From the NCBI GenBank assembly GCA_018713255.1, contig DVFL01000041.1, positions 22,145 through 86,144 on the forward strand: 64,000 bases of DNA. The letters run 5' to 3'. Both the position numbers and the translations under genes were made by a program. The notes under the pieces were generated by a model, which had not been told where the DNA came from, searched no databases, and saw only the letters and a list, made by a program, of their open reading frames with translations. This DNA is from Candidatus Cottocaccamicrobium excrementipullorum. Lineage in GTDB: Bacteria; Bacillota; Clostridia; Lachnospirales; Lachnospiraceae. Every line of letters starts with the position of its first letter. Positions within the stretch are counted from its first letter, which is position 1. Positions 38,314-46,582 of this stretch are shown here, piece by piece.

Positions 38314-40206
<1,893 letters not shown>

Positions 40207-40252
40207 TAAAGACGTCCTTCTGCAGTATAGTATAGTGCAAAAGGCGTCTTTA
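40207..40252. terminator. Terminator-like hairpin, likely end of the parA-parB-DUF4446 transcript
   Basis: TAAAGACGTCC-TTCTGCA pairs with TGCAAAAGG-CGTCTTTA with one bulge and one mismatch; T-rich flanks occur on both strands. It lies beyond the 108-bp repeats relative to the DUF4446 gene. Confidence 0.7.
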
Positions 40253-40272
40253 CTTTTACTCTATCAGTCCGG

Positions 40273-40611
40273 CGCATGACGGTTTACTTTGACCACCCGC
40301 CGCCGACTAGGCGGCATCAATTCAGGGATTCCAAATGCGCCGCCAGACTTTTTCGGATTGGATAAAGACCTGACCGCCGGCGCATGACGGTTTACTCTGA
40401 CCACCCGCCGCCGATTAGGCGGCATCAATTCAGGGATTCCAAATGCGCCGCCAGACTTTTTCGGATTGGATGGCACCCTGACCGCCGGCGCATGTTGGTT
40501 TACTCTGACCACCCGCCGCCGACTAGGCGGCATCAATTCAGGGATTCCAAATGCGCCGCCAGACTTTTTCGGATTGGATGAAGACCTGACCGCCGGCGCA
40601 TGTTGGTTTGT
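40273..40611. repeat. Three exact-length 108-bp tandem repeats plus a partial fourth
   Basis: Units begin with CGCATG at 40273, 40381 and 40489, and a fragment starts at 40597. Copies are nearly identical, differing mainly just before the unit end. Each holds two palindromic parts: CCGCC-GACTA-GGCGG, and ATGCGCCG pairing with CGGCGCAT across the unit junction (about 55 bases apart). Because 108 is a multiple of three, a minus-strand frame (40264-40626) stays open through all copies, but it has no ribosome binding site. Diverged relatives occur at 45627 and 45751. Confidence 0.93.
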
Positions 40612-40629
40612 TTTGATCCACCACACCGT

Positions 40630-41157
40630 CTACTTATCGGCAGGCTCGGAGTATTCTACATAACCAAGCGCCTGTTCCAGCGCCTCTCTCTCCTCGCTTC
40701 CCAAAAGCACTTCCGTCTGTCCTCGATCTACTCGCTTTAAATACATATAACAGCCCTCTCTGCTGTGAACAGAGTTTAACACAAATCCACTATTCGTATA
40801 ATCCAACAATGCAATGGCAAAGCTCAAATTGCCGCCCATTCCCTGAAACGCATTGTATCGCACAAGCCCAAGTTTTTGAAAAGAAGCTCGAATATTCCGA
40901 TTGATGGCCCGAATATTTTCTTTATTCGTCTTATCTTCAATCTTCAGCAGATTAATATCCTCAATCTGCTTGATCAATAAATCTTCAAGTGTCTCTGCAT
41001 CTTTCCCCCGCATGAACAAATCATACCGTCTGTACAGCTGGCCCATTTTCACCAAGCAAATAATTACGGTAATAAACAAAATAAGGGTAATTACGGCTAA
41101 CCCCAAAATCAAATATCCTGGATCAATGCCCAAACGATACATTATACTATTTTCCAT
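40630..41157 (-). CDS. DUF4446 family membrane protein
   Basis: A 175-aa protein with one N-terminal membrane helix (about 12-35), a short coiled-coil stretch (about 60-95) and a compact C-terminal domain (about 98-165; GLVRYNAFQGMGGNLSFAIALLD, then the SREGCYMYLKRV block). The family is of unknown function and characteristically follows parB near the origin in Clostridia, as here. Start ATG at 41157 is preceded by AAGGAG at slightly long spacing; the frame overlaps parB if extended to 41193. Confidence 0.88.
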   Translation of the reverse strand: MENSIMYRLGIDPGYLILGLAVITLILFITVIICLVKMGQLYRRYDLFMRGKDAETLEDLLIKQIEDINLLKIEDKTNKENIRAINRNIRASFQKLGLVRYNAFQGMGGNLSFAIALLDYTNSGFVLNSVHSREGCYMYLKRVDRGQTEVLLGSEEREALEQALGYVEYSEPADK

Positions 41158-41176
41158 GACGTTTTTCACTCCTTGG

Positions 41177-42178
41177 TCACTTGATCGATTCAATTAGTTC
41201 TACGATTCTTTCCAGCTCCGAAGCTGAATAGTATTCGATTTCGATTCGGCCTTTATTTTTATCTTTTTGGTGTATCATCACCTTTGTTCCCATAATCCCC
41301 TTCATTCGTTCTTCCAAATCCCGGAAAATGAAGCTTAAGTCTCGGTCTTCACTATTTTCTTTCTTTTCCTTCGGCGGTTTTGTCATAAGCTTTACTAGTT
41401 TTTCCACTTCCCGCACGCTTAATCCCTTTTCCACCACGCGTTTTGCTAATTCTTCCTGCTGCTCAGGTTCCGGAAGGCCTAGAATAGCTCTGGCATGTCC
41501 GCTGCTCAGCTCTCCAGTAATCAAGTAATTTCTTACGGTCTCCGGCAATTTTAACAGGCGGAGACTGTTGGCAATGGTTGTTCGATTTTTTGAAACTCTG
41601 AAAGCTATCTCTTCCTGCTTCATTCCAAATTCTTCCATTAACTGAGCGTAGGCCATTGCCTCTTCGATCGGATTTAAGTCTGCTCTCTGTACGTTCTCGA
41701 TCAGAGCAATCTCTACCGATTGCTGCCGATCATATTCTCGAACAATGACCGGAACTTCTTTTAGTCCCGCAATTTTAGCTGCTCTCCAGCGTCTTTCTCC
41801 AGCAATGATCTGATACCGATCTTCGCCGGTTTTCTTAACTAAAAGCGGCTGAATAACACCGTATTCTTTCATGGAATCTGCTAATTCTTCCATAGACTCC
41901 TGATCGAAATTTTTTCTCGGCTGCTCTCGGTTAGGCTCAATTTGAGTAATTTTTACCAATGTTTCACGTGAAACATTTTCCTCTTGTTTCTTATCTTCTT
42001 TTTCTTGGCTTATTTCTTTCTGCGGAGCTGATTTATGTACGGATCTGTTCTCAAAACTCTTCCCTTCATTGTCCTGCTTCCCTGTTCCCTTTCGGTCAGT
42101 GCTTTCCTCTGATTCACGTACCACATCTTCCCCAAAAAAAGCGCCAAGCCCTTTTCCTAATGCTGATCGTTTTGCCAT
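41177..42178 (-). CDS. parB: Chromosome-partitioning protein ParB (Spo0J)
   Basis: CTP-dependent clamp that loads on parS and spreads to organise the origin. 333 aa: N-terminal MAKRSALGKGLGAFFG, a charged low-complexity linker (about 20-70), the ParB/CTPase domain with GERRWRA (127-133) and ENVQRADLNPIEEA, the helix-turn-helix (EIAFRVSKNRTTIANSLRLL) and a C-terminal dimerisation segment. Its start codon overlaps the parA stop (TAATG). A parS site lies within the gene itself. Role: chromosome segregation, possibly sporulation control with ParA. Confidence 0.97.
   Translation of the reverse strand: MAKRSALGKGLGAFFGEDVVRESEESTDRKGTGKQDNEGKSFENRSVHKSAPQKEISQEKEDKKQEENVSRETLVKITQIEPNREQPRKNFDQESMEELADSMKEYGVIQPLLVKKTGEDRYQIIAGERRWRAAKIAGLKEVPVIVREYDRQQSVEIALIENVQRADLNPIEEAMAYAQLMEEFGMKQEEIAFRVSKNRTTIANSLRLLKLPETVRNYLITGELSSGHARAILGLPEPEQQEELAKRVVEKGLSVREVEKLVKLMTKPPKEKKENSEDRDLSFIFRDLEERMKGIMGTKVMIHQKDKNKGRIEIEYYSASELERIVELIESIK
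41960..41975. promoter_or_regulatory. parS site 1 (inside parB)
   Basis: Perfect 16-bp ParB-binding site TGTTTCACGTGAAACA, located within the parB coding sequence. Confidence 0.95.
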
Positions 42179-42948
42179 TATAATCCTTCTCCTCTGCTTA
42201 TAACCTCTGCCGCCAAAAGACGATAGCTTTCGGCTCCTGTTGATCGTGAATCGTACAAATTAATTGACATTCCATGGCTAGGTGCTTCCGCCAGCCTTAC
42301 ATTTCTAGGAATAATCGTTTTATATATATTTTGATTCAAATTACTTTTTACACTCTCAACCACTTCCAGAGACAAATTTGTTCTGGCATCATACATTGTA
42401 AAGACTACACCCTCCATCTCTAAAGAAGGATTTAGCTTCTTTTTCACTAAATTAATTGTTTTCATTACTTGGGTTAATCCTTCCAATGCATAATACTCAC
42501 ATTGAATAGGAACTAAAACGGTATCGGCAGCTGTCAACGCGTTAATGGTCAACAGGTTCAATGAAGGCGGACAATCAATTAAGATAAAATCATACTGATC
42601 TCGAACTTCATTTAAATATTTGCGAAGCAAGGATTCCTTGTCCTCCACATCCAGCAGTTCAATTTCCGCCCCTGCTAAATTTACGTCAGAAGGAAGTACA
42701 TCTAAATGCTCCTGTACACTCTCCGTTATGCATTCATCAATAGAACATTCTCCTACTAACAGCTCATAAACCGTATTTTCAATATTACCCTTTTCCAATC
42801 CCAATCCACTGGTTCCATTTCCCTGCGGATCAAAATCTACCATTAAAACCTTTTGTCCAGCCTCAGCAAGGCATGCAGATAAATTAATTGCCGTTGTGGT
42901 TTTTCCCACCCCGCCCTTTTGATTTGCGATGGCGATTACTCTTCCCAT
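42178..42948 (-). CDS. parA: Chromosome-partitioning ATPase ParA (Soj)
   Basis: Walker-type ATPase that, with ParB, segregates origins and can act on DnaA. 256 aa with the deviant Walker A KGGVGKTTTA (11-20), Walker A' strand VLMVDFDPQGN and Walker B FILIDCPPSL. The start ATG at 42948 follows AGAGGATTTTAATTC. First gene of the leftward parA-parB-DUF4446 operon; its 5' leader contains a long hairpin at 42988-43058. Confidence 0.97.
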   Translation of the reverse strand: MGRVIAIANQKGGVGKTTTAINLSACLAEAGQKVLMVDFDPQGNGTSGLGLEKGNIENTVYELLVGECSIDECITESVQEHLDVLPSDVNLAGAEIELLDVEDKESLLRKYLNEVRDQYDFILIDCPPSLNLLTINALTAADTVLVPIQCEYYALEGLTQVMKTINLVKKKLNPSLEMEGVVFTMYDARTNLSLEVVESVKSNLNQNIYKTIIPRNVRLAEAPSHGMSINLYDSRSTGAESYRLLAAEVISRGEGL

Positions 42949-42987
42949 GAATTAAAATCCTCTTTTCTTTTCACGCATCTTATTTTC

Positions 42988-43058
42988 CATCAGTGTTCAA
43001 GGGGAGCATACGCCCAAAACAGCAGTGCTAAACCGTGTGTTCCCCCTATACACCGATG
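42988..43058. other. Long rod-like hairpin in the parA leader
   Basis: Outer arms CATCAGTG (42988) and CACCGATG (43051), inner arms AGGGGAGCATACG (43000) and CGTGTGTTCCCCCT (43034), with G-U pairs and a 21-base apical loop containing AGCA/TGCT. It ends 40 bases upstream of the parA start. It could be a leader structure of parA or a small RNA. In the gap 42949-43534 the only other signals I see are a parS site and AT-rich promoter-like sequence around 43230. Confidence 0.5.
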
Positions 43059-43413
43059 CTATGTCTGGGATTTGTCCAAATTATCTCAAACGATTGAAGC
43101 AACTTGCTAGACAGCGTTTTTAGAATAAACCTGAAGAAGCCAGACTAGTATTCCTGCCGCAATCTTGATTCTCTAAAATTGCCAGGAACATGCTTTATAG
43201 TATATCATAATTTTTTCTTTTTTCCTATTATAATATAGCACAAAAAAGAATGAACGAGGAAAAGAATCATGGTTGTTAATCTGCTGACCATTATTCATCT
43301 CTCCTTGACAAGGTAATTGAATGAAACTGAAATGGGATTTCCTTGACAGTTTATCTTATTCAGTTTAAACTCGTACCAAATATATTTCTCTTCTAACAAC
43401 GAATTTATCGAAA

Positions 43414-43429
43414 TGTTTCACGTGAAACA
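43414..43429. promoter_or_regulatory. parS site 2 (intergenic)
   Basis: Second perfect copy of TGTTTCACGTGAAACA, about 1.45 kb from the first, upstream of the amidohydrolase gene. Confidence 0.95.
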
Positions 43430-43534
43430 TTTGTATCGATTATCCGTGCTCAAGTGAACACCGTAATAAACCGACACCTCCATCCATAATTTGAGAAAAT
43501 ACCAATTTAAATGATAGAAAGGATTGATTTCGCT

Positions 43535-44428
43535 ATGAAACATTTATCCATTGCTCTTCTTCAGCTTCTCCCTTTTTCACCAGAAGACGAATCATATTTG
43601 GAAAAAAACTTGAAAAAAGGACTTGAGGCATGCTGTCAGGCAAAAGAAAAAGGAGCCGATATTGCACTATTTCCAGAAATGTGGAATTGTGGGTATAAAA
43701 TTCCCCAATCACCCCAACAACAAAAAAGATTAGCGATTTCTTCTGAAAGTCATTATCTTCAAGAATTTCGAAAAGCTGCCGCAGATCTCAATATGGCCAT
43801 TGGAATTACTTTTCTGGAAGACTATGATCCTCTTCCTCGAAACTCATTTACTTTAATTGATCGTCATGGTCATTCCTTATTTACCTACGCAAAAGTTCAT
43901 ACCTGTGATTTTGGAGATGAACGCAGCCTTACTCCAGGGTCACAGTTCTATACTGCTGACTTAGATACAGCCTGCGGTCCTGTTAACATCGGAGCAATGA
44001 TTTGTTATGATCGAGAATTCCCGGAAAGCGCCAGAATCTTAATGCTCAAAGGCGCTGAAATCATTCTTGTGCCTAATGCCTGTCCCATGGAAATCAATCG
44101 ACTGTCTCAGCTTCGAGGCCGAGCATATGAAAACATGACCGCAATCGCCACATGCAATTACCCTAAAGGACAACCTGACTGCAACGGCCATTCTACCATA
44201 TTTGATGGAATAGCATACCTTCCGGAAATGGATGGTTCTCGCGACACCTGTATTCTGGAAGCAGGAGAACAAGAAGGGATCTACCTTGCTTCTCTCGACC
44301 TAGATCTTCTCCGACATTATCGTGAAGAAGAAGTACACGGAAACGCTTATCGGAGGCCCAGTTTATACCATCCGCTCATCGAGAAGGATAAGAAACCGCC
44401 ATTTATCAGAAAGGATTATCGTCAATAA
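43535..44428 (+). CDS. Carbon-nitrogen hydrolase (nitrilase superfamily amidase)
   Basis: A 297-aa enzyme hydrolysing an amide or carbamoyl bond. The Glu-Lys-Cys triad is clear: Glu48 (LFPEMW), Lys120 (YAKVHTCDF) and Cys157 (GAMICYDREFPE). The fold closely resembles N-carbamoylputrescine amidase/omega-amidase relatives, but the substrate is not assigned. I use ATG 43535 (MKHLSIALLQ) because AAAGGA lies in the upstream sequence; an in-frame ATG at 43511 has no ribosome binding site. It stands alone, rightward, in an otherwise leftward region near parS. Confidence 0.9.
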   Translation: MKHLSIALLQLLPFSPEDESYLEKNLKKGLEACCQAKEKGADIALFPEMWNCGYKIPQSPQQQKRLAISSESHYLQEFRKAAADLNMAIGITFLEDYDPLPRNSFTLIDRHGHSLFTYAKVHTCDFGDERSLTPGSQFYTADLDTACGPVNIGAMICYDREFPESARILMLKGAEIILVPNACPMEINRLSQLRGRAYENMTAIATCNYPKGQPDCNGHSTIFDGIAYLPEMDGSRDTCILEAGEQEGIYLASLDLDLLRHYREEEVHGNAYRRPSLYHPLIEKDKKPPFIRKDYRQ

Positions 44429-44505
44429 CCCCTCTGATCTGCTTTTCATTCCAATTTATATCGTCTAAATTAGTCATCTAAAGGGGAATAGCAAATAAAA
44501 TTTCG

Positions 44506-44534
44506 TTGTAATCCCATATTGCCTGTATTATAAT
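44506..44534 (+). promoter_or_regulatory. Promoter of the alpha/beta-hydrolase-like gene
   Basis: TTGTAA (44506-44511), 17-base spacer, TATAAT (44529-44534). The transcript would have a leader of about 115 bases with a small TGTAC/GTACA hairpin near its start. Confidence 0.78.
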
Positions 44535-44658
44535 GAACATAACATCGATGTACGGGCAAAAAGTACAGGGCCGCGGAGAAGATTATATTTCCTGCATGCG
44601 CTGAACGCTTTATCATCCCAAAATATAAATTTATGTCACAGGAGGGGTAATTTTTTCT

Positions 44659-45612
44659 ATGAGCACAAAAAACAAGCTGTTAACCATTCTGACACTAAGC
44701 GCCGGAGCAGCTGCATCTATGGCCTGTCTGAATAAATACATTCAGCTCTCTGCATCCAGCAAGAATGTATTAGAAAATGATTTCCCATCTCTCTGCTATC
44801 GATGGCGCCTGGGAAATATTCATTATCAAAAAGTTGGAACAGGAAAACCGCTCCTTCTGATCCATGATTTAAACGCCATTTCCAGCAGTTACGAATGGAA
44901 AGCGTTAGTTAAACCGTTAAGCGAACATTTTACAGTGTATACAATCGATCTTTTAGGATGCGGCCGCTCAGAAAAGCCAAACATGACTTATACGAATTAT
45001 CTGTATGTTCAGCTAATCTGCGATTTCATTAAAAGCGTAATCGGCCGGCGCACCAGTGTTGCAGCAAGCAAAGCTTCTGCTCCTATCGCTCTGATGGCCT
45101 GCAGCTGCAACAGCGAGCTGTTTGAAAATCTCTTGCTGATCAATCCAGACAGCATCCAAACCTGCAGTCAAGTTCCTGGAAAATCGGCAAAGCTGTATAA
45201 ATTTATTTTAGACCTCCCGCTGATTGGAACGTTTATTTATCATATTTCCACCAGTCGGCAAAACATCCAAACAGTTTTTGCCAATGAATATTTTGAAAAT
45301 CCATTTTCAGTCCACAGAACGTTGATTGATGCATATTATGAGTCTTCCCATTTAGGAGTCTCACCTAAGTCCGTATATTCCAGCACAGTCTGTCATTACA
45401 CAAAATGCAACATTCTAAATGCGCTGAAAAAAATCGACAACAGCATTTATATTCTTGGATGTAAGTCGATTAACGAAATGGAAGAACGTCTTGAAGAATT
45501 TAAGAAATATAATCCAGCGATTGAGACAACTCTTCTTTCTGAAGGCAAAGAACTTCCCCAACTGGAATGTCCCTCTGCCGTCCTTCAAGCAATAAACACT
45601 TATCTCTACTAA
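44659..45612 (+). CDS. Membrane-anchored alpha/beta-hydrolase-fold protein, probably catalytically degenerate
   Basis: A 317-aa protein with an N-terminal hydrophobic helix (about 6-24) that probably anchors it, then an alpha/beta-hydrolase fold: the GKPLLLIHDLNA oxyanion strand, TVYTIDLLGCGRSEKP, and a nucleophile-elbow position reading AASKA with Ser137. The usual acid residue (after the GxxD strand; here LGCKSINEM) and catalytic His (family GHxPxxE; here EGKELPQLE) are not present. That makes esterase activity doubtful; a binding or scaffold role is possible. The start ATG at 44659 follows CAGGAGGGG. A bidirectional terminator follows at 45693. Confidence 0.85.
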   Translation: MSTKNKLLTILTLSAGAAASMACLNKYIQLSASSKNVLENDFPSLCYRWRLGNIHYQKVGTGKPLLLIHDLNAISSSYEWKALVKPLSEHFTVYTIDLLGCGRSEKPNMTYTNYLYVQLICDFIKSVIGRRTSVAASKASAPIALMACSCNSELFENLLLINPDSIQTCSQVPGKSAKLYKFILDLPLIGTFIYHISTSRQNIQTVFANEYFENPFSVHRTLIDAYYESSHLGVSPKSVYSSTVCHYTKCNILNALKKIDNSIYILGCKSINEMEERLEEFKKYNPAIETTLLSEGKELPQLECPSAVLQAINTYLY

Positions 45613-45626
45613 TTTGCGCTAAAAGT

Positions 45627-45680
45627 CCTGCCGCCACACTTTTGCAAGATAGTTAGCGCGCTGACCGCCGGCCCATGATG
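45627..45680. repeat. Diverged copy of the 108-bp repeat family (partial)
   Basis: CCTGCCGCCACACTTTTGCA then, after 21 bases, GCTGACCGCCGGCCCATGATGG. It aligns with the second half of the 40.3-kb repeat unit (CGCCGCCAGACTTTTTCGG ... CTGACCGCCGGCGCATG). Confidence 0.7.
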
Positions 45681-45692
45681 GATCGAAAAGAA

Positions 45693-45740
45693 AAAACTGG
45701 AAGTTCTGAATGATAAAATTCAGTTTCTTCCAGTTTTCTT
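45693..45740. terminator. Bidirectional terminator between the hydrolase-like gene and rsmG
   Basis: AAAACTGGAAG (45693-45703) pairs with CTTCCAGTTTT (45727-45737), with an inner GAAT/ATTC stem and A/T tracts at both ends. Confidence 0.9.
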
Positions 45741-45750
45741 TACTTTATAT

Positions 45751-45808
45751 ATGCGCCGCCAAAATTTCGCGGAATTGCTAATACGCTGACCGCCGGCCCA
45801 TGATGGGT
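45751..45808. repeat. Second diverged copy of the 108-bp repeat family (partial)
   Basis: ATGCGCCGCCAAAATTTCGC through CTGACCGCCGGCCCATGATGG. Matches the same half-unit as the 45627 copy, and the two flank the terminator. Confidence 0.75.
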
Positions 45809-45832
45809 TTCTCTGTTTATTTATTTAGCTTT

Positions 45833-46582
45833 TCAGCTCTTGCTTTTCCCCCCTAAGGGCTCTTTCGCCGGCATTCCGGCTTTTCTCGGATATCGTTTTC
45901 CCGTTTCTTTTACCTTTCTGATTTTTACAAAGCTTCTTTTCATCTCTGTATCTGGCAGCAAAAAGGGATATACTTCCTCAAGCTTTCCTCCCAAAATCTG
46001 AATAGCTTTTTTCGCCGCCTCTGCTTCTTCTTCCACCTCTCCAGATTTATAAGAAATAAAGACTCCTCCAGTCTTGACGAAGGGCAGGCAATACTCCGAT
46101 AAAGTTGATAAATTTGCTACTGCTCTGGAAACTGCGCAATCATAACGTTCACGATAGTCTGCTTTCTGTCCCATGTCCTCTGCTCTTCCATGAACCGCTT
46201 CAATGTCCCTAAGTCCCAACTGCCGGCAGACCTCTTCAAGAAATTTTACTCGTTTCTGGAGAGAATCTAAAAGAGTAATCTGACAAGAAGGAAACGCGAT
46301 CTTTAAGGGAATTCCAGGAAAACCACCTCCTGTTCCCACATCGATGATTCGAAGGGTTTTCTCTTCTTTCAGCTCTGTCAAAACTTTAATCAAAGAAAGG
46401 CTATCTACAAAATGCTTGGTAATAATCTCTTTCTCTTCAGTAATGGCAGTTAAATTCATTACTTTATTTGTCTCCACAAGCATTTCCATATATTGGTAAA
46501 ATTGATTCATCTGTTTTTCCTCCAGATGAATTCCAATCTGCCCCAGCTCCTGCTCCATCTGCCGCAAAAAACTCTCCTTCAT
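45833..46582 (-). CDS. rsmG: 16S rRNA (guanine527-N7)-methyltransferase RsmG
   Basis: SAM-dependent methyltransferase that modifies G527 of 16S rRNA. 249 aa; the SAM-binding GTGGGFPGIPL motif (about 82-92) and DSLQKRVKFLEE are visible, followed by SRAVANLSTLSEYCLPFVKTGG (catalytic-fold segment). A short basic tail (KRYPRKAGMPAKEPLGGKSKS) extends the C-terminus. Last gene of mnmE-mnmG-rsmG. Loss of this gene in other bacteria gives low-level streptomycin resistance (family knowledge). Confidence 0.97.
   Translation of the reverse strand: MKESFLRQMEQELGQIGIHLEEKQMNQFYQYMEMLVETNKVMNLTAITEEKEIITKHFVDSLSLIKVLTELKEEKTLRIIDVGTGGGFPGIPLKIAFPSCQITLLDSLQKRVKFLEEVCRQLGLRDIEAVHGRAEDMGQKADYRERYDCAVSRAVANLSTLSEYCLPFVKTGGVFISYKSGEVEEEAEAAKKAIQILGGKLEEVYPFLLPDTEMKRSFVKIRKVKETGKRYPRKAGMPAKEPLGGKSKS

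Follow-up and report, generated by a model that had tools for sequence, protein, structure and literature searches.

IS608 of Helicobacter pylori, an insertion sequence of the IS200/IS605 group with the Y1 transposase TnpA, is among the described systems closest to the repeat considered here. According to the accessible part of one report, its insertion takes place precisely 3′ of the tetranucleotide TTAC, which stays in the left flank, while AAAG, located 5′ of a hairpin, serves as the left guide and the base after TTAC matters as well (PMC5934647). PATEs of Haloquadratum are described, in the available portion of their report, as transposase-free elements without terminal inverted repeats, having near-terminal palindromes akin to those of resident IS605-type transposons and core deletions arising by repeat-mediated deletion (PMC3119063). 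Rickettsia palindromic elements (RPE) of about 150 bp are found in frame in unrelated genes and are very often intragenic, as stated in the accessible text of a further source (PMC10969869). The CGTC group of REPs, including the CGTC-ended RPE, seems to have no dedicated transposase, as far as the available part of another paper goes (PMC3733652).

The window analysed in the present work is a stretch of 64,000 nucleotides from Candidatus Cottocaccamicrobium excrementipullorum (Lachnospiraceae). It contains a tandem array which gave the top-scoring of the seven rows of Tandem Repeats Finder (40269-40609, period 108, 3.2 copies, 93% matches, score 605), and the exact 108-bp units reported in an earlier note on this DNA were thus confirmed. 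Three full elements of 108 bp follow one another on the plus strand at 40283..40390 (from TTTAC to GG), 40391..40498 and 40499..40606, and all of them read GACCAC where the family has AAAG. The fragment said to accompany the units proved to be two different things, namely a miniature remnant at 40255..40282 (plus strand), which, as read from the sequence, consists of a left end, TTTACTCTATCAGTCC, fused to a right end, GGCGCATGACGG, and, by eye, the truncated start of a fourth unit (TTTGTTTTGATCCACC) at 40607..40629 (plus strand, about 23 bp), which reaches the DUF4446 stop codon. Four left-right fusions similar to this remnant were found in congener loci.

The array is located, as the earlier note had placed it, between a parAB-DUF4446 operon and its terminator. 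On one side there is the stop codon of the DUF4446 gene (40630..41193, minus strand; Pfam PF14584, E 1.1e-53), and on the other a terminator-like inverted repeat of the presumed operon transcript (40201..40258, minus strand), with 19-nt arms that are 84% complementary. The frames which we take to be parA and parB, names carried over from the earlier note, and those of DUF4446 and rsmG (GidB by Pfam) are all on the minus strand, so the complement of the element would belong to the presumed 3′ UTR of parAB-DUF4446. A search of positions 40200-45900 against Rfam gave no matches at E ≤ 1. Two further copies, taken previously for diverged half-units, are diverged indeed and are not bare halves, since in both, as read by eye, left-end-like sequence is fused to the right part. 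The copy at 45613..45681 (plus strand) begins with TTTGCGCTAAAAGTCC, its left end being fused at GCCGCC to the right half; that at 45739..45806 (plus strand) joins, by eye, TTTACTTTATA to a right half starting with ATGCGCC, just 11 bases of the left end being left.

The sequence model built from 17 copies gave 46 matches at E ≤ 0.001 on 18 of the 42 contigs of the same genome, 41 of them on contigs other than that of the window, and a chance origin of the array family is therefore excluded; with 150 of 1241 candidates scored, the number 46 may be low. A pattern search found 19 places, and none with the reversed control. Copies elsewhere in Lachnospiraceae, a search for which the earlier note had proposed, were found in all 10 congeners (2-62 matches each) among 61 genomes and, weakly, in one of 50 others, 60 candidates being scored per genome. 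In 250 genomes drawn evenly across the family (14 candidates scored in each), seven matched at 1e-6, namely the own genome, one congener and five from other genera (5 of the 248 other family genomes). The scan of named genomes found at least 112 stretches with the element; Ca. Caccovicinus merdipullorum, Hungatella sp., Enterocloster sp., Ca. Limivivens and Bacterium D16-56 are among the matches listed. Viral contigs searched with the exact core pattern, as well as plasmids and phages searched with blastn, gave no match. Three sets were obtained: 148 copies that are full and unique, from 11 genomes; 302 unique places, full or partial, when named genomes are included; and 215 copies with both ends readable.

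Some peculiarities of the assemblies should be mentioned. In five contigs of the Ca. Caccovicinus assembly G005 (C87, C89, C90, C100 and C132), element copies begin less than 100 bases from the contig start; assemblies are therefore likely broken at the repeat, and the copy numbers are undercounts. Two stretches labelled Ca. Hungatella pullicola and Ca. Blautia excrementipullorum (L278 and L301) are 99.8% identical over 4068 bp spanning parAB and three element copies; one of the two MAGs is therefore probably misnamed or mis-binned. In contig C61 of G165, one of the five carriers from other genera, the copies are spaced similarly to those in the possibly misbinned L301.

The consensus of the family reads N-TTAC-TCTG-AAAG-TC, then hairpin A (GCCGCC-loop-GGCGGC), a conserved core ATTCAGGGATGCC, hairpin B (ATGCGCC(C)G...CGG(G)CGCAT) and GAAGG-TTTAC. 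Conservation begins abruptly at TTAC and fades on the right past TTTA(C). In the 131 non-tandem copies among the 215, the left edge shows TT in 97-99%, A in 80% and C in 91%, with T as the preceding base in 58% and nothing conserved beyond it, and the right edge shows GG-TTTA at 71-98%; the four positions of AAAG are kept in 92, 88, 94 and 75%, ATAG being present in part of G005. In all 215 copies, TTAC was found in 165 and AAAG in 107. TCTG is weakly favoured in the right flanks of the single copies (T 69%, C 38%, T 59%, G 36%), the first base being T in 90 of 131. Copies of 107-112 bp make up 209 of the 215, and 81 are exactly 108 bp long. A right end stands directly upstream of 42 of the 215 copies, and a left end directly downstream of 49, in head-to-tail arrangement. 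The ends TTTACTCTGAAAG and GCATGAAGGTTTAC are, by eye, not inverted copies of each other, and no target duplication was detected in 176 offset pairs at six lengths (best z 1.9). No correlation between the two ends of the same locus was found within genomes (657 matches against 654 expected) in 92 copies from genomes with at least four, selected from the 131 single copies, of which 115 carried a genome label. Two copies of G029, a genome of another genus, retain both ends and differ in the middle, with lengths of about 95 and 165 bp by eye. At three loci of G010 (L114, L258 and L261), an additional small palindrome, TTTATAGGAAATT...CCTATAAAGC, follows the copy at its right end.

Hairpin A, supported, as hairpin B is, by covariation in the family, occupies 40299..40315 in unit 1 (plus strand; GCCGCC-GACTA-GGCGGC), 40407-40423 in unit 2 and 40515-40531 in unit 3. 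Hairpin B extends over 40335..40385 in unit 1 (arms 40335-40342 and 40378-40385), 40443-40493 in unit 2 and 40551-40601 in unit 3, again on the plus strand. The palindromic arms CGGCGCAT/ATGCGCCG mentioned in the earlier note are present, and of 200 shuffles all but one fold less well than unit 1 (z -2.9). The statement that the paired positions are mostly kept in the diverged window copies did not hold, because neither of the internally deleted copies folds better than its shuffles (z +1.5 and +0.6). Neither refuting outcome named there, a lack of other copies or of conserved pairs, applies to the family, in which the covariation proposed as a check was found; in these two copies, however, the pairs are broken. 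In an alignment of 52 of 62 non-redundant copies (A3), standard pairs fill 97.3% of the 728 cells given by the 14 pairs of the two helices, while helices slid along the alignment were paired in at most 48.4%. Double changes occur in five pairs and 20 cells, a level reached by none of 500 shuffles; the number of further pair types in the stems shows no excess over shuffles (191 of 500). The arms of hairpin B covary too, with CCC/GGG in 93 copies, CC/GG in 67, discordant arms in 7 and other or not scorable ones in 46 of 213. Compensated stems such as ATACGCCC/GGGCGTAT were seen by eye among seven copies from other genera. Wobble pairs possible only on the TTAC strand outnumber those possible only on its complement (G-T 35 against A-C 17 distinct states, p 0.018, lineages being roughly separated), and hence the TTAC strand is likely the folding one, this strand preference being modest. 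A distant pairing between CTNTGAAAGTC of the left end and GACTTTCATG, visible by eye in some congeners, is absent in the window and in G005 and was not counted.

The window locus was compared in six congener stretches. The gap between DUF4446 and gdh is wholly covered in four of them (G003, G006, G008 and G010), and the element is absent in all four; the contigs of G001 and G004 end 115-175 bases past DUF4446 and are element-free so far. In G006, a single strong copy lies between parA and a hydrolase gene and there is also a weak partial match; G004 has two strong copies elsewhere in its stretch. Congener DNA is too diverged for a base-level empty site at this locus (72-84% identity to Ca. Hungatella pullicola in the aligned genes). 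Identity between nearest dispersed copies rises to 98-100% in G004, G005 and CALWQE, and the best pair in the own genome reaches 91%, due to which the activity of the element in this genome looks older.

Copies inside genes provide empty sites at the protein level, from which those at the base level are deduced. In 302 places, 15 frames span the element with at least 150 bases on either side, several being opposite-strand frames of one place; in our judgement, four places (L007, L004, L246 and L095) are real genes with an internal copy, a count based on spanning open frames, and L237 and L226 have copies at a protein N-terminus. The hosts of the in-frame insertions are unrelated and include a GH106-like protein, a YhgA-like protein and a HemCD/CobA fusion. 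In two proteins with homologs, the 36-codon insert is directly beside TTAC and relatives are without it. L007, whose relatives carry PF04754 (YhgA-like) and which itself scores slightly under the cut-off, reads PDY, 36 residues, AINV. Its closest insert-free relative, P0003 (95% identical, or 82% over 84% of the query, and N-terminally shorter), reads PDYPINV, the insert being missing directly after PDY and P standing beside the insertion point where the filled protein has A. In an alignment of 10 rows, including 9 of 344 further relatives, P0002 retains the insert, and P0003 and seven others are without it. The DNA of L007 passes from GATTAC into TCTATAAG at the left boundary and from GGTTTAC into GCAATA at the right one.

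L004 is the GH106-like protein (E 5e-11), its GH106 domain being elsewhere than the insert. From the alignment of 14 of its 36 homologs, P0122 (99%) retains the 36 residues and 13 are without the element peptide, two of these with other residues there, and the empty site would read TTTAC directly followed by TCTGCAGG. In L246, the HemCD/CobA fusion, TP_methylase and HEM4 flank the insert; it is kept in three relatives at 97-98% and absent in ten, 13 of 120 listed relatives being aligned and linker differences blurring the insert edges. The reading strand is the TTAC strand in L007 and its complement in L004 and L246. At L237, three tandem units in frame form a possible N-terminal extension of 3 × ~37 residues upstream of a protein which presumably is WbqC-like.

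All 10 congeners examined carry matches, the sites differ where they are comparable, and the element has sharp ends, no target duplication and two covarying hairpins. The suggestion of a mobile palindromic element in the earlier note is in agreement with the dispersed copies, the differing congener sites, the insert-free homologous proteins and the compensatory stem changes; its comparison to REP/BIME was not supported. In our opinion, with a probability of about 0.57, the array marks one of the sites of a non-autonomous palindromic element, dispersed and about 108 bp long, that has been inserted beside TTAC across a lineage of Lachnospiraceae and likely moves as folded single-stranded DNA by means of an IS608-like Y1 transposase acting in trans. 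TTAC would be the target and the left cleavage site, AAAG the guide and TTTAC the right cleavage site, the TTAC strand being the one that folds. A transposase of the IS200/IS605 Y1 type, supplied in trans, would cut and join the folded single-stranded element. A second copy could insert directly behind the first, which would give a head-to-tail 108-bp array, since the right end TTTAC would make a new target for the next copy. Recombination between repeated GCCGCC motifs may have produced the internally deleted remnants at 45.6-45.8 kb, and copies with a length divisible by three and an open frame could persist within genes.

This anatomy is the one expected of an IS200/IS605-type element in several respects, with the target tetranucleotide in the left flank, no target duplication, subterminal hairpins and folding of one strand. 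Like IS608, the repeat keeps TTAC beside its left end and has, in its consensus, AAAG on the 5′ side of a subterminal hairpin; each end has a hairpin nearby, and there is a base preference after TTAC, here for T. Unlike IS608, it ends on the right with TTTAC instead of TCAA, contains neither tnpA nor tnpB, has no found partner gene with its ends and shows no guide-target covariation (left C/T against guide G/A, p 0.47, 215 copies). It resembles PATEs in the absence of a transposase and of terminal inverted repeats, in the near-terminal palindromes and in the core deletions, and differs from them in that its palindromes match no scanned Y1/TnpB locus, it is bacterial and it is sometimes found in frame inside genes. 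With RPE it shares the character of a short palindromic repeat and in-frame insertion in unrelated protein genes, whereas its length is about 108 bp, its end is TTAC rather than CGTC and it was judged gene-internal in four of 302 unique places. MITEs of the ERIC and RUP types have terminal inverted repeats and a target duplication of the TA type. The element is similar to them in size range, dispersal and occasional open frames, but it shows neither of these two marks of DDE-transposon MITEs.

Y1 genes were sought in 22 draft genomes and TnpB in 11, and the ends were scanned at 44 loci (38 + 6). No Y1/TnpB locus with the element's own ends was found among these 44, and the associated REP-type transposase suggested in the earlier note did not appear there, either as a RAYT or as another Y1 gene with matching ends. 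The own genome has one Y1 gene, of the IS200 type by our reading; G005, with 62 matches, gave neither Y1 nor TnpB, and G000, G005 and G006 gave no TnpB match. In G228, a carrier from another genus, a Y1 gene is present in two copies, whose common sequence ends exactly at TTAC, followed by CAAATGCGCCGT-AAAG-hairpin. Among 12 printed left ends of its relatives, two have TTAC with AAAG and seven TTAT with AAAA, by eye. An enzyme with TTAC target logic thus exists in Lachnospiraceae. Its gene family was found at E ≤ 1e-30 in 12 of 397 genomes, G000 and G008 being without it. The left end of this IS605-type tnpA (G228:C22, L456), TTAC-linker-AAAG-hairpin, is like that of the element, in an element-carrying genome, but its hairpin is CCCTGCC-TTTA-GGCATGGG rather than GCCGCC-loop-GGCGGC, and the G228 contig ends before the right end.

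The left ends at L456:498-550 (G228:C22) and L455 have TTAC/AAAG or TTAT/AAAA, as the IS608 pairing rule predicts, and the linker CCAAATGCGCCG of this tnpA family is also present in the element core. The scan of the ends gave two good matches, L453 and L404. L453 of G228 was rejected as a partner end, since the copy is degenerate and unrelated genes separate it from the Y1 gene. At L404:300-1893 in G008, an IS607-type element (serine recombinase and split TnpB, by reading of the frames) stands beside a partial repeat copy; being a neighbouring IS607, it was not accepted as a partner, and no element match was found at a second copy of it, L408.

The absence of a Y1 locus with the element's ends among those scanned and of guide-target covariation would also suit movement by another enzyme, either a site-specific recombinase whose substrate would be a circular form, with a junction TTTAC/TCTG resembling the target, or an unknown transposase. 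The target is similar to the junction of the element itself, as TCTG remains preferred in the right flanks of single copies, and no replication-strand bias was found in neutral contexts. Recombinases do not need two hairpins with a wobble excess on one strand, however, and the agreement of both TTAC and AAAG with IS608 would be a coincidence, due to which we consider this explanation rather unlikely. Mobilization in trans is also assumed for REP/BIME with RAYT, and these share with the element dispersed, mostly intergenic palindromes, RAYTs being members of the Y1 family. A REP element mobilised by RAYT is, nevertheless, very improbable here, because the units are longer (mostly 107-112 bp), with two hairpins, TTAC/TTTAC ends and head-to-tail arrangement; the element is no palindrome of 20-40 bp tagged at one end with GTAG or CGTC, and neither a RAYT gene flanked by the repeat nor any Y1 locus with matching ends was found in the genomes searched. 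In the accessible part of the source, the phyla named with the GTAG and CGTC families do not include Firmicutes (PMC3733652).

Orientation relative to genes bears on the possibility that the repeat is kept mainly for an RNA function, its complement in 3′ UTRs affecting mRNA stability or termination, as was proposed for some REPs. Out of 250 places, 205 were kept and reduced to 180 insertion events, genes being simple longest-frame calls; the complement is co-oriented with both neighbours in 93 and opposite in 33 (p 8e-8), and in the window the array itself comes after the DUF4446 stop and before the presumed terminator of the operon. However, convergent and divergent gaps are also occupied (30 and 24 of 180), the window site is empty in the four congeners fully seen, copies occur inside proteins, Rfam gave no match, and the excess of G-T over A-C points to folding of the other strand. 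Selection against the folded strand in mRNA, a simple reading, would explain the orientation bias as well. An apparent replication bias, with 35 of 44 matches facing against the leading strand as given by GC skew (some matches being counted twice, since two stretches overlap), vanishes in convergent and divergent gaps (25 against 26, three ambiguous), and the orientation bias is, consequently, tied to transcription. IS608 is said to prefer the lagging strand, and the bias of the element runs in the opposite sense. An RNA role as the main reason for keeping the repeat is, in our opinion, improbable. Hardly credible is a repeated small protein translated from the 36-codon periodic minus-strand frame. 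It would account for the 120-aa open frame that covers the array (40264..40626, minus strand, 3 × 36 codons) and for the in-frame copies inside proteins, but this frame, judged to be no gene, has no Pfam match. Among the 81 copies of 108 bp, 36 have an open best minus frame and 52 an open best plus frame, compared with 27% of simple shuffles; mean variability by codon phase (0.86, 0.69 and 0.86 bits) shows no single variable phase; and the lengths of 107-112 bp are often not divisible by three (101 of the 215 copies).

Published descriptions of this element family were not found in the open PMC literature, a collection that covers subscription journals only to a small extent. Returning to the preferred reading, an IS608-like Y1 transposase acting in trans, we tentatively suggest, at somewhat less than even chances, that the repeats represent an undescribed Bacillota family of palindromes moving as single-stranded DNA, with IS608-type self-targeting ends, stacking on themselves and giving unrelated proteins in-frame 36-residue modules from either strand, a Gram-positive counterpart of RPE with traceable chemistry. 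The mode of movement of RPE-like palindromes has remained an open question, and since this family combines IS608-type end anatomy with in-frame insertion, single-strand chemistry becomes testable as a source of inserts in genes. For annotation, the element would account for some of the contig breaks in carrier genomes and for some of the open frames that recur there as "hypothetical", and it represents a natural route by which proteins acquire a 36-residue segment.
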